64,000 nucleotides of DNA from Thermomonas aquatica (GTDB lineage: Bacteria; Pseudomonadota; Gammaproteobacteria; Xanthomonadales; Xanthomonadaceae): assembly GCF_006337105.1 (NCBI RefSeq), contig NZ_CP040871.1:2141501-2205500 (forward strand), read 5' to 3'. The position numbers and the translations under genes are program-made. The notes under the pieces are model-generated. The model worked only from the letters and a program-made list of their open reading frames with translations, had not been told where the DNA came from and searched no databases. This document shows, piece after piece, positions 15,081-23,223 of this stretch (position 1 is its first letter; every line of letters starts with the position of its first letter).

Positions 15081-16391
15081 TTACGCCGGCAGCACCATCG
15101 ATACGCACAGCCCGCCGTCCTGGCGGTTGAGCAGGGCGATGCGGCCGCCATGCGCTTCGGCGATCTCGCGCGCAAGCGCGAGGCCAAGCCCGGTGCCATG
15201 GCGCTTGGTCGAATAGAACGGCAGCAGCGCGTTCGCCAGCACCGCCTCGTTCATGCCGCTGCCGCGGTCCAGCACGTCGATGCGCCAGCCTTCCGGGGTG
15301 CGCCGGATCGACAGGCGGACTTCATTCGCGGGCGATCCGGATTCGTGCGCGTTCTTCAGCAGGTTGAGCAGGGCCTGTTCCATCTGCGCGGCATCGAAGC
15401 GGGCGATGCCGTCGGCCGGCTGCAGCTCCAGCGCGAACTCGACCTGGGTCCGCAATTGTTCGGCGAAGCGCCGCCATTCCAGCGGTTCGCTGCGCGGCGA
15501 CGGCAATTTCGCGAAGCGCGCGTAATCGCGGATGAAGCCCTCCAGATGGCGTGCGCGATCCTCGATGGTGGTCAGCGCCTCCGGCAGGCGCTCGGTCTTG
15601 CCTCGGCGCAGCAGCTCGGCGCTGGAATGCGCCAGCGAGGCGATCGGCGCCAGCGAATTGTTGAGTTCGTGGCTGATCACCCGGATCACCTTCTTCCAGG
15701 TCTGCACTTCCTGCCGGCGCAGCTCGGCGGTGAGCTGGCGCAGCAGCACCAGTTCGTGCACGCGGCCGTTGAGGCGGAAGCTGCGCCGGGCGAGGTGGTA
15801 GATATCCTCGTCGTCGGCGTCGCCGACGGTGAACATGCCGTCGCCGCCGCGTTCGAAGGCCTCGCGCACCGCGGGGTCGGCGGCGGCGAGCACGTCGTCG
15901 AAGGCGCGGCCTTCCAGCCGCCGACCTTCGCCGAGCATGCGCCGCGCGGCGAGGTTGCCCAGCACCACGCGCTGCGCGGCATCGACCAGCACCATCGCCA
16001 CCGGCGTGTTCTGCACCATGGTGTCGAGCAGCAGCTCGCGCTGCACCAGCGCCAGGCGCTGTTCGCGCAGCGCGTTGCCGAGCGCGTTGTGCGCATCCAC
16101 CAGTTCGATCAGGTCGCTGGCCTTGTCCCAGGTGATGCCGAAGCTGAAATCGCCATCGCGATAACTGGCGACGGTGCCGGCGAGTGCGCGGAACAAGGCG
16201 CGCATCGGCACCAGCGCGCGCCAGATCACGGTGGCGACGATGCCGCCGATCGCGCCGGCGGGGAGCAACGCGGCGGCCCATGGCTGCAGCCAGCGCGACA
16301 GCAGCCAGCTGGCGAGCGCGGTCGCCACGATGCCGGCGACCGCGATCGCGATCATCCGCACCGCCACCGGCAGCACGCGCAGGACGCGCAT
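15081..16391 (-). CDS. sensor histidine kinase (NtrY-like)
   Basis: This is a 436-aa inner-membrane kinase. Two hydrophobic helices at about 10-34 and 40-60 enclose almost no periplasmic domain, followed by a linker helix, a PAS-like region (about 120-215) and the H-box VISHELNNSLAPI with the phosphorylated His at 241. The ATPase domain has the N-box LLNLLKNAHESG and the G-boxes DRGSGM and GTGLGLALAREI. A short sensor loop suggests that it detects a membrane or cytoplasmic signal. Its start overlaps the stop of the response-regulator gene by one base (TGATG), so they form a two-component pair and the end of the efflux operon. Confidence 0.92.
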   Translation of the reverse strand: MRVLRVLPVAVRMIAIAVAGIVATALASWLLSRWLQPWAAALLPAGAIGGIVATVIWRALVPMRALFRALAGTVASYRDGDFSFGITWDKASDLIELVDAHNALGNALREQRLALVQRELLLDTMVQNTPVAMVLVDAAQRVVLGNLAARRMLGEGRRLEGRAFDDVLAAADPAVREAFERGGDGMFTVGDADDEDIYHLARRSFRLNGRVHELVLLRQLTAELRRQEVQTWKKVIRVISHELNNSLAPIASLAHSSAELLRRGKTERLPEALTTIEDRARHLEGFIRDYARFAKLPSPRSEPLEWRRFAEQLRTQVEFALELQPADGIARFDAAQMEQALLNLLKNAHESGSPANEVRLSIRRTPEGWRIDVLDRGSGMNEAVLANALLPFYSTKRHGTGLGLALAREIAEAHGGRIALLNRQDGGLCVSMVLPA

Positions 16392-17734
16392 CAGCCGCGC
16401 GCGATGCCGAGCCGGTCGAGCCGGCGGTACAGCGCCTGCCGCGACAGGCCGAGGTCGGCGGCGGCCTGCGCCAGCACGCCGCCGTTGCGTTCCAGCGCGG
16501 CTTCGATCGCGGCGCGGTCCGGCTCGTCGTTGCCGCTCGTTGCGCCGTTCGCGCCGGGCGCGGGTTGCAGGTCGAGGTCGGCGGCGGCGACCTCATCGCC
16601 GCGCGCGAGCAAGGCCGCGCGCTGCATCGCGTTGCGCAGCTCGCGCACGTTGCCCGGCCATGTATGCCGCTGCAGCGCGCGGTCGGCGTCTTCGCCGAGG
16701 CGCTTGCCGGCGGGGAGGAAATGCCGCGCGAGGGGCAGGATGTCGCGCGGCCGTTGCGCCAGCGGGGGCAGGCGCAATTCGATGCCGTTGAGGCGGTAGT
16801 ACAGGTCTTCGCGCAAGCGGCCGTCGGCGATCAGCGCCTGCAGGTTGGCGTTGGTGGCGCTGACGATGCGCACCTTGACGCTGCGCTCGCGGTTGCTGCC
16901 GAGGCGCTCGAAGCGGCCGGTCTCGAGCACGCGCAGCAGCTTCACCTGGCCGGCCAGCGGCAGGGTGCCGATCTCGTCGAGGAACAAGGTGCCGCCGTCG
17001 GCCGCCTCGAACTTGCCTTCGCGCGGCTTGTTGGCGCCGGTGTAGGCGCCTGCGTCGGCGCCGAATAGTTCGGCTTCGATCAGTTCCGCCGGCAATGCGC
17101 CGCAGTTCAGCGCAACGAAGGGACCGCTGCGCACCAGCGAATTGGCATGCACGATCTCGGCAAAGCGTTCCTTGCCCACGCCGTTCGGGCCGGTGATCAG
17201 CACCGGCAGTTCCGAACGCGCCACCTGGCAGGCCAGCGCCAGCGCGTTCTCGCTGGCCGGATCCGCATACACGATGCCGCGCAGGTCGTAGTCCTTGAGC
17301 AGGGCATCGCGGCGCTTGCGTTCGCTGGCGCTGGCCTGCGCGAGCTCGCGCCTGCTTTCGCCGAGTTCGAGCAGGTTGTTGACGGTGGCGATCAGCTTGC
17401 GGTCGTCCCAGGGCTTGGCCAGGTAATCGGCGGCGCCGGCCTTGACCAGTTCGATCGCGGACTCCAGTTGCGTCCATGCGGTGAGCAAGATCACCGGCAA
17501 GTCCGGATGCGATGCGCGGATCTGGTGGAACAGCGCCACGCCTTCGTCGCCGGAAGTGGTGTCGGCGTGGAAGTTCATGTCCTGGATCACCAGGTCGACG
17601 TCTTCGCGCGCAAGCATCTCCAAGCCATCGCGCGGCGATTCCGCGCGCAGCGTGCGCAGGTCGTGCAACGAGAACAGCACGTCGAGCGCGGTGCCGACCG
17701 AGGGGTTGTCGTCGATGACGAGGATCGTGGGCAT
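16391..17734 (-). CDS. sigma-54-dependent NtrC-type response regulator
   Basis: This is a 447-aa regulator. The receiver domain has the acidic pair at D8/D9 and the phospho-acceptor D52. The AAA+ domain follows with Walker A GPNGVGKE (182-189), the sigma-54 contact loop in the form GAYTGA (229-234, F to Y) and Walker B TLFLDEIG. The C-terminus carries a Fis-type helix-turn-helix (LAQAADLGLSRQALYRRL-like, about 423-440). The start at 17734 gives the canonical MPTILVIDDNPSVG; the longer frame upstream is a shadow of the NTF2-like gene. The only consensus -24/-12 promoter noticed in the window lies in front of the first gene of this operon, so it probably activates its own operon. Confidence 0.95.
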   Translation of the reverse strand: MPTILVIDDNPSVGTALDVLFSLHDLRTLRAESPRDGLEMLAREDVDLVIQDMNFHADTTSGDEGVALFHQIRASHPDLPVILLTAWTQLESAIELVKAGAADYLAKPWDDRKLIATVNNLLELGESRRELAQASASERKRRDALLKDYDLRGIVYADPASENALALACQVARSELPVLITGPNGVGKERFAEIVHANSLVRSGPFVALNCGALPAELIEAELFGADAGAYTGANKPREGKFEAADGGTLFLDEIGTLPLAGQVKLLRVLETGRFERLGSNRERSVKVRIVSATNANLQALIADGRLREDLYYRLNGIELRLPPLAQRPRDILPLARHFLPAGKRLGEDADRALQRHTWPGNVRELRNAMQRAALLARGDEVAAADLDLQPAPGANGATSGNDEPDRAAIEAALERNGGVLAQAAADLGLSRQALYRRLDRLGIARG

Positions 17735-17742
17735 GCGTAATG

Positions 17743-18231
17743 CTACGGTGATTCCGCTGCAGAATTGCGGCGATGCCCGTAACTGAGCACGCGGGTGACC
17801 TGCCACTGCCCGTCGCGCAGGCGCCAGACCATCACGAAGTCGGCTTCGCCCTCGCAGCGCCCGCCATCGGCCTGGCAGAAGCGGTGCACGCCCTGGGCGA
17901 TCGCGCCGAAGCCCCTGACCGGCGACACCCGCAGGCCGACTCGCTCGCGGGTGTAATGGCCGCAGGCGTATCGTGCGGTGTTGGCGATCATCGCCTCGCG
18001 CGTCCAGCTGACGCCGCCGGTGTCGTGGTAGAACTCGACGTCGGGTGCGAAGTAGCGCGCGTGCGCCTGCAACTGCGCCGGCTCGGCGCAGCGGTTGAAG
18101 GCCGCGAACACGGCGTCGTCCAGCGCGGCGATGGTGGTCTCCAGCGATGCCGCTTGCGGCGGCTCGACGGGCGCCGCGCTGGCCGCGGATGCGCCAAGGG
18201 CAAGCCACAACGCGATGGCGGGGCGTTTCAT
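17743..18231 (-). CDS. secreted NTF2/SnoaL-like domain protein
   Basis: This is a 162-aa protein with a signal peptide (MKRPAIALWLALGASAASA, cleavage after AxA). Its mature part looks like a nuclear transport factor 2 / DUF4440 fold: helix with FNRCAEP, then YFAPDVEFYHD, followed by ADFVMVWRLRDGQWQVTRVLSYGH. Members of this fold bind or modify small molecules; no catalytic site can be assigned. The start at 18231 has a GGAGG ribosome site. It lies inside the ABC efflux/two-component operon, so it may be a periplasmic partner of the pump or sensor (inference). Confidence 0.8.
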   Translation of the reverse strand: MKRPAIALWLALGASAASAAPVEPPQAASLETTIAALDDAVFAAFNRCAEPAQLQAHARYFAPDVEFYHDTGGVSWTREAMIANTARYACGHYTRERVGLRVSPVRGFGAIAQGVHRFCQADGGRCEGEADFVMVWRLRDGQWQVTRVLSYGHRRNSAAESP

Positions 18232-18262
18232 TCGATCCTCCCGGGAGTGCAAGCCGGCCGCA

Positions 18263-23119: not shown

Positions 23120-23129
23120 GCCCTGTACA

Positions 23130-23147
23130 TCGCAACTAGCGTGCCAA
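23130..23147 (-). promoter_or_regulatory. consensus sigma-54 (-24/-12) promoter of the efflux operon
   Basis: On the minus strand TTGGCAC (23147-23141), five bases, then TTGC (23135-23132) match the sigma-54 consensus TGGCAC-N5-TTGC exactly. Transcription should start near 23120, directly before the adaptor gene. The operon it serves encodes an NtrC-type activator. Confidence 0.85.
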
Positions 23148-23191
23148 CTTCAAGTGATTGAAATTAAAGGGAATAACTTGCTTCCAGGAAT

Positions 23192-23223
23192 GTCCGCCGG
23201 GCGGACGCCGTGTCCGCGCGGAC
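23192..23223. promoter_or_regulatory. pair of dyads, likely NtrC-type activator sites
   Basis: GTCCGCC-G-GGCGGAC (23192-23206) and GTCCGCGCGGAC (23212-23223) are perfect inverted repeats sharing the half-site GTCCGC. Their centres are 18-19 bases apart and about 80 and 98 bases upstream of the predicted sigma-54 start, the usual place for an enhancer site. They also lie in the glmS leader region. Confidence 0.65.

Follow-up and report, generated by a model that had tools for sequence, protein, structure and literature searches.

A probably self-inducing and probably sigma-54-dependent export operon in Thermomonas aquatica and its relatives

The window analysed here, 64,000 nucleotides corresponding to positions 2141501-2205500 of the single-contig 3.0 Mb genome of Thermomonas aquatica, contains an operon of eight minus-strand genes that codes for an envelope exporter together with an NtrC-type regulator and a histidine kinase; comparison with relatives suggests that the operon is probably switched on by its own regulator and sigma-54. 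The genes are arranged in the order adaptor, 75-amino acid (aa) open reading frame (ORF), ABC ATPase, permease P1, permease P2, DUF4440 protein, regulator and kinase, with intergenic gaps of -4 to ~+34 bases. The operon is flanked by a glmU-like gene (plus strand, 13707-15077) and a glmS-like gene (plus strand, ATG at 23278), both named by reading of their translations. The 158 bases separating the divergent start codons hold two dyads, an IHF-like site and a -24/-12 box. Among named organisms, Thermomonas and other Lysobacteraceae have the adaptor proteins closest to this one. The features are as follows.

23212-23223, minus strand: upstream activating dyad 1, GTCCGCGCGGAC (from sequence; conserved)
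23192-23206, minus strand: upstream activating dyad 2, GTCCGCCCGGCGGAC (from sequence; dyad counts in relatives below)
23151-23163, minus strand: IHF-like site, TTTCAATCACTTG, with one mismatch to WATCAANNNNTTR (from conservation; IHF would bind here)
23132-23146, minus strand: predicted sigma-54 -24/-12 promoter, TGGCACGCTAGTTGC (from sequence and its conservation)
21803-23119, minus strand: periplasmic adaptor of the HlyD/RND-MFP type, start possibly at ATG 23107 (TIGR01730, PF16576)
21579-21806, minus strand: 75-aa ORF overlapping the adaptor stop by 4 bases (ATGA), a member of a conserved small-protein family
20816-21544, minus strand: ABC ATPase (PF00005), Walker A and signature motif intact in the sequence
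19504-20805, minus strand: MacB/FtsX-type permease P1 (PF12704 and PF02687; N-terminal half of the ADOP model TIGR03434, below cut-off)
18263-19507, minus strand: MacB/FtsX-type permease P2 (PF12704 and PF02687; C-terminal half of TIGR03434, below cut-off)
17743-18231, minus strand: DUF4440 (NTF2-like) protein with an apparent signal peptide, as judged by eye, start possibly at TTG 18252 (PF14534)
16391-17734, minus strand: NtrC-type response regulator, REC-AAA-Fis, with a GAYTGA loop (PF00072, PF00158, PF02954)
15081-16391, minus strand: histidine kinase with two adjacent transmembrane (TM) helices, PAS, HisKA and HATPase domains (domain matches, alignment)

An earlier reading made from the sequence alone (the sequence-only reading) had described an eight-gene operon that ends in a sigma-54 activator and its kinase, and all eight ORFs lie where it placed them. 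The exact TGGCAC-N5-TTGC that it reported at 23146-23132 is present as the sole exact copy in the window, and the two GTCC/GGAC dyads, said to lie 80-98 bases before the start, have their centres ~98 and ~80 bases upstream of ATG 23119. Taking C23132 as -12, the transcript is predicted to start at ~23120, which abuts the annotated ATG 23119; the mRNA would therefore be leaderless, or translation would begin at ATG 23107. Among the 60 relatives, 28 have the nearest in-frame start detected by the scan 33-40 bases downstream of the box; for the others the scan gave no settled position. The genome of the window carries one rpoN and three strong matches to Sigma54_activat (218-235 bits), the regulator of the operon among them, as well as three marginal ones (21-26 bits, cut-off 20.2). 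Exact copies of TGGCAC-N5-TTGC number 10 in the 3.0 Mb genome versus 2 for a reversed-pattern control; shuffling leads one to expect 0.33 per window, and 31 of 100 shuffles hold at least one. The box alone is thus unremarkable in the window, and the operons of 60 relatives were therefore compared.

These operons were picked by us from genomes with good adaptor matches (identity of at least 44% in 128 of 149 genomes, by our own count), and the window was added to them. The box was scored by a weighted consensus (maximum 15.5, threshold 13.5; weights set by us), the sigma-54 consensus being that given in passages of PMC3224663. Scores of at least 13.5 were obtained in 60 of 61 upstream regions, compared to 12 of 1220 dinucleotide shuffles and, likewise, 12 of 1220 control windows elsewhere in the same loci. 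In the 60 box-bearing operons, to which the dyad and IHF-like counts are confined (locus L057 being omitted), a GTCC-N2..4-GGAC dyad was present in 51, with 57 bases upstream examined, as opposed to 1 of 1200 control windows, which come from the same loci and hence are mostly coding DNA. The sequence WATCAANNNNTTR occurs with at most one mismatch in 41 of the 60 operons (17 of 1200 shuffles), and the IHF-like site is located 17-18 bases before the TGG in 38 of 41 operons; a sigma-54 promoter of Xylella has the IHF site AATCAA-N4-TTG, according to a passage of PMC3224663. With its conserved TGGCACG-N4-TTGC, upstream dyads and IHF-like site, the operon has the predicted make-up of a sigma-54-dependent, enhancer-activated operon. 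Given the conservation of box and dyads across relatives, a chance box is very unlikely.

The regulator has the composition of an NtrC-type bacterial enhancer-binding protein (bEBP): a REC domain, an AAA domain with a GAFTGA-type loop and a Fis helix-turn-helix. Among 11 aligned sequences, GAYT and the receiver residue D53 are invariant; the loop reads GAYTGA in ten and GAYTSA in one (L055), the change from F to Y making it a variant of GAFTGA. It was rejected as the NtrC equivalog, the nitrogen regulator (TIGR01818, 339 bits versus a cut-off of 558.6). The regulator gene lies on the same strand downstream of the exporter in 58 of 60 loci; of the two remaining loci, L073 ends with its contig, and L083, from genome G101, has its regulator elsewhere. 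In a set of 25 genomes picked by us, a regulator orthologue (70-100% identity) was found in 10 of 10 exporter-positive and 0 of 15 exporter-negative genomes, the regulator paralogues listed for the latter having at most 51% identity. A second target in the window's own genome was not found: the composite pattern CGGACA-N35..60-TGGCACG-N5-TGC matches this operon only, and of eight palindromic dyads with at most one mismatch (nine for a reversed control, so that they are no commoner than it), for seven the -24/-12 score does not exceed 13.0 within 220 bases and only that of the operon has a box of such a score nearby. A larger regulon in this genome was rejected by both the composite-pattern and the dyad-plus-box searches.

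The positive autoregulation of a MacAB-like exporter, as put forward in the sequence-only reading, is strongly supported by the fact that box, dyads and regulator linkage are conserved across the 60 relatives and by the co-occurrence of regulator and exporter in the 25 genomes. The operon is probably a self-inducing envelope-export module, in which its own NtrC-type regulator and sigma-54 would switch on the whole operon. Sequence conservation shows the genes, the box, the dyads, the linkage and, in relatives, second targets; we infer binding, phosphorylation, the part of IHF, the direction of transport, the outer-membrane channel, the sensing route and the role of the small protein. The module could operate in the following manner: The kinase, presumably sensing its own transporter or the membrane in a Bce-like fashion, would phosphorylate the regulator, oligomers of which would bind the paired GTCC/GGAC dyads. 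A DNA bend, probably brought about by IHF, would then bring the regulator to the sigma-54 RNA polymerase on the -24/-12 box, leading to transcription of the entire operon, regulator and kinase included. The adaptor, the ATPase and the two MacB-like permeases may clear a periplasmic substrate via a TolC-like channel encoded elsewhere, and the small ORF (sORF), or a separate small protein under a like promoter in other lineages, might serve as a dedicated partner, either as cargo or as feedback element. To describe the circuit as 'closed' says too much for the family as a whole: relatives have a further target preceded by such sites, and in G101 regulator and kinase lie elsewhere. In the window's own genome the searches found no second target.

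The sensing step follows from the layout of the kinase. It has no periplasmic sensor domain, and according to hydropathy the same layout is seen in relatives: the stretch before the YRDG motif consists of two hydrophobic segments joined by a turn of few residues. From the first possible start to this motif, the median distance is 77 residues and the minimum 73 in 49 relatives; long values, up to 444, stem from upstream in-frame starts, and the motif is missing in two loci. Bce-type kinases have the same lack of room outside; in Bce modules the two-TM kinase goes with a large-loop transporter, and sensing there seems to fall primarily to the translocator (passages of PMC3023708). Lacking a domain in the periplasm, the kinase of the operon most likely takes its cue from its own transporter or from the membrane, by analogy with BceS reading BceAB.

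Several observations weigh against this picture of the module. The window's own box, taken alone, is weak evidence and no more than chance. One of the 61 upstream regions, L057, is without a good box, and the dyad as defined is missing in nine operons (L042, L058, L060, L069, L071, L077, L078, L079 and L093); where present, its spacer varies (2, 3 or 4 bases), which is unusual for one fixed palindrome. The regulator of G065, counted among the 58 linked ones, is separated from the last permease by ~7 kb that include a gene on the opposite strand. Regulator and kinase of G101 lie ~270 kb from the exporter, and the 8 kb examined around them contained no such site; the exporter there still has its box (score 15.0), so the loop looks open in this genome. 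Two sites are kept in G136, where exporter adaptor and regulator were not found, and in G110 an exporter-type promoter with dyads stands directly before a kinase remnant (L406, 2454-3785), apparently as a result of deletion; that assembly, which is fragmented, yielded neither adaptor nor regulator. Site and regulator are therefore imperfectly tied. Finally, the Bce-like sensing step is drawn from topology only, and the kinase also carries a PAS domain, unlike the Bce type.

The small ORF was regarded as an extra part by the sequence-only reading; instead, it belongs to a conserved gene family, found by profile in 67 of 247 family genomes. Homologues occupy the same operon place in 23 of 60 loci and follow the pattern FPF-LHW-LADAVP-RL ... 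GY-LP-FRVR, with W16, A24 and P26 invariant in an alignment of 19 sequences; no Pfam or NCBIfam family matched the 75-aa ORF, and neither a signal peptide nor a hydrophobic stretch was seen in it by eye. The dN/dS ratio was 0.34-1.07 over 39 pairs of at least 50% identity, one pair exceeding 1 (Nei-Gojobori, hence rough for such GC-rich sequences). Judged by these comparisons, the sORF is a fast-evolving but coding sequence and a real conserved gene family, which is new. Genome G038 (L045) has two tandem, diverged copies between adaptor and ATPase.

In relatives, a second target lies mostly beside trmL. The composite pattern is found in 107 of 149 family genomes, versus 29, by our own count, for the reversed control, and among the places listed the recurrent matches other than the exporter precede a small protein with a hydrophobic N-terminus, mostly just upstream of trmL. 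Two types are seen: (i) XAC0231-like proteins of ~100-160 aa with two to four repeats that by eye resemble xLPAVTVRPSAEDLA, and (ii) shorter proteins, several of which start with xRGLLALPxxxLL. The repeat protein of G006 passes the model NF052303 (XAC0231 family protein; 152.9 versus a cut-off of 140 bits), but its counterpart in G016 falls short (64.6); no PDB sequence match was obtained for the G006 protein. Repeats such as TLxTVxVRPSAEQ in the XAC0231-like secreted proteins upstream of trmL (L208, L216, L220, L256, L259) presumably resemble the TonB-box region of TonB receptors. Further composite matches, in G001 (C12) and G046, lie before an additional adaptor gene that has diverged; those in G138, G065, G117, G016 (C68), G074, G011, G008 and G075 (C1:2784818) seem to be due to chance or to belong to other genes. 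In G082 (L388) a short trmL-linked ORF (MSLHTQLLRGLLALPLLALL...) reads through into TrmL without a change of frame, as though all that is left of the small gene were a leader joined to trmL.

The trmL survey covered 84 genomes in which the trmL region could be read, a part of them picked for matching the pattern, and a site was defined by a score of at least 13.5 plus at least three half-sites. Such a site was present in 33 genomes, 31 of them with a small ORF beside it and none with the sORF; 30 others have the sORF and 21 neither. In the operon-based set of 60 (G148 without trmL data, G146 admitted at 13.0), the sORF is found in 24, the trmL site in 18, neither in 18 and both in none; in three of the 18 with neither (G022, G033, G100), a composite site precedes another small protein elsewhere. 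If genomes were independent, the chance of zero overlap would be ~1e-5. On the tree, 11 changes suffice and only three well-supported independent pairs are available, too few for a test, and the exclusivity is not significant once phylogeny is considered.

Alternative explanations concern both the regulator and the small proteins. Box and dyads might serve the exporter with another bEBP as activator, the operon's regulator acting elsewhere: the genome holds two further strong Sigma54_activat matches, and such sites persist in G136, which has no regulator orthologue. We regard this as very improbable, as orthologue and exporter co-occur (10 of 10 versus 0 of 15) and lie together in 58 of 60 loci, if only loosely in one; moreover, no alternative target of the regulator is evident in the window's genome, the seven other dyads having no box score above 13.0 nearby. 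The operon might also be a dedicated secretion system with a small protein as cargo (the sORF or the Sec-type trmL-linked protein) instead of an efflux pump for external toxins. In many lineages a like promoter stands before the exporter and before a small protein, the latter varies from one lineage to the next, the sORF changes fast, and MacB-family pumps take periplasmic substrates, including Sec-delivered peptides, with cargo of up to ~10 kDa (passages of PMC8277102), which fits, without showing, a small secreted cargo. The window's sORF, however, lacks by eye the signal peptide or hydrophobic stretch of the trmL-linked proteins, the types show no similarity by eye (no search having been made), and their exclusivity does not survive phylogeny; secretion of this kind thus seems possible but doubtful.

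Another tentative, rather unlikely role for the small protein would be that of a feedback regulator of the kinase, in its logic presumably parallel to MgrB or CpxP. A short co-regulated protein exists in many genomes, the xRGLLALPxxxLL N-terminus of several lineages could be a membrane helix facing the kinase, and the only non-cytoplasmic parts of the kinase are its membrane helices; on the other hand, the sORF itself is without a membrane segment by eye, and XAC0231-like proteins bear repeats and have a length of ~100-160 aa. A more speculative extension, which we consider unlikely, sees the self-inducing module as a Gram-negative, sigma-54-wired counterpart of Bce flux sensing: a fast-evolving small protein (one, rarely two, per genome), placed under the regulator's dyads and encoded either within the exporter operon or apart from it at a site such as trmL, would be both cargo and self-inducing signal, and permease pairs would have multiplied to match cargo variety.

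The exporter itself has two separate MacB_PCD/FtsX genes, coding for permeases of 433 and 414 aa. Assignment to known exporters was rejected in three cases: for MacAB (MacA NF008606, 59 versus 342 bits; MacB NF007826, at most 210 versus 966; separate ATPase), for the darobactin exporter DarBCD (NF038007, 262 versus 375; NF038008, 32 versus 700; NF038010, 63.5 versus 450) and for the ADOP permease (TIGR03434, 182 and 210 versus a cut-off of 622 bits). The DUF4440 gene is present in 9 of 60 relatives' operons. Outside the family, full-length relatives of P1 (41-47% identity) were found in 3 of 229 genomes searched across the class. The number of permease pairs behind one adaptor and one ATPase varies: five in G006 (L160), four in G029 (L159), three in G053 (L161), and two in G043 (L164), G046, G121 and G070; the operons L160, L159, L161 and L164 still end in regulator and kinase. 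G006 has, in addition, a second, diverged adaptor-ATPase-permease-permease-NtrC-kinase operon (L409, 2435-9699) with its own -24/-12 box, but a count over 60 bases gave only one GTCC/GGAC half-site; as far as these sequences tell, the same gene layout recurs there with another operator.

The proposed module amounts to a testable, family-wide regulon with a defined operator, promoter, regulator and kinase, with named members in Xanthomonas, Stenotrophomonas, Pseudoxanthomonas, Luteimonas and Lysobacter. It ties one exporter to an unnamed small-protein family and to one named by locus tag only, and the shared promoter hints at what the pump may handle. It also offers a Gram-negative system for asking if a kinase that has no outside domain monitors its transporter, and one ATPase with up to five permease pairs lets one ask how a single motor serves several gates. 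Literature searches found nothing on the operon, its dyads, kinase topology or second targets, and no paper for XAC0231 and XAC1346 in the library searched; the XAC0231 family (NF052303), which the trmL-linked protein of G006 joins and that of G016 does not, bears a locus-tag name only. With the terms searched, no main-text passage about this operon turned up in PMC7280030, PMC7970052 or PMC10782981.

Among known systems, Bce modules (BceRS-BceAB) share with the operon a two-TM kinase with a very short outside loop, seen here by hydropathy, the pairing of kinase and regulator, and a transporter with a large outside domain (passages of PMC3023708). They differ in that the operon has an NtrC-type regulator with sigma-54, an adaptor, a PAS-bearing kinase and, in place of a single 10-TM BceB permease with a loop of 197-213 aa, two separate permeases; according to the same source, BceS- and BceB-like families are Firmicutes-specific, with one exception. 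MacAB-TolC likewise combines an adaptor, an ATPase and a MacB_PCD/FtsX permease, but here the ATPase is unfused, the two permeases are different and the scores fall far short of the equivalog cut-offs for MacA and MacB. In the ADOP model P1 corresponds to the first half and P2 to the second, yet they are split into two genes beside an ATPase and an adaptor. An enrichment of sigma-54 promoters for COG0577 FtsX/MacB permeases in Gammaproteobacteria, Opitutia and Bacteroidia was described in 2025 as the first evidence of such a link (PMC12316311), and sigma-54 control of these permeases in Gammaproteobacteria was predicted there, so that the general link is already in print; the passages concerned do not cover this operon, its dyads, autoregulation, kinase topology or small proteins. 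New here are the two-helix kinase without a periplasmic domain, the small-ORF family, the second, small-protein target and the up to five permease pairs per ATPase.

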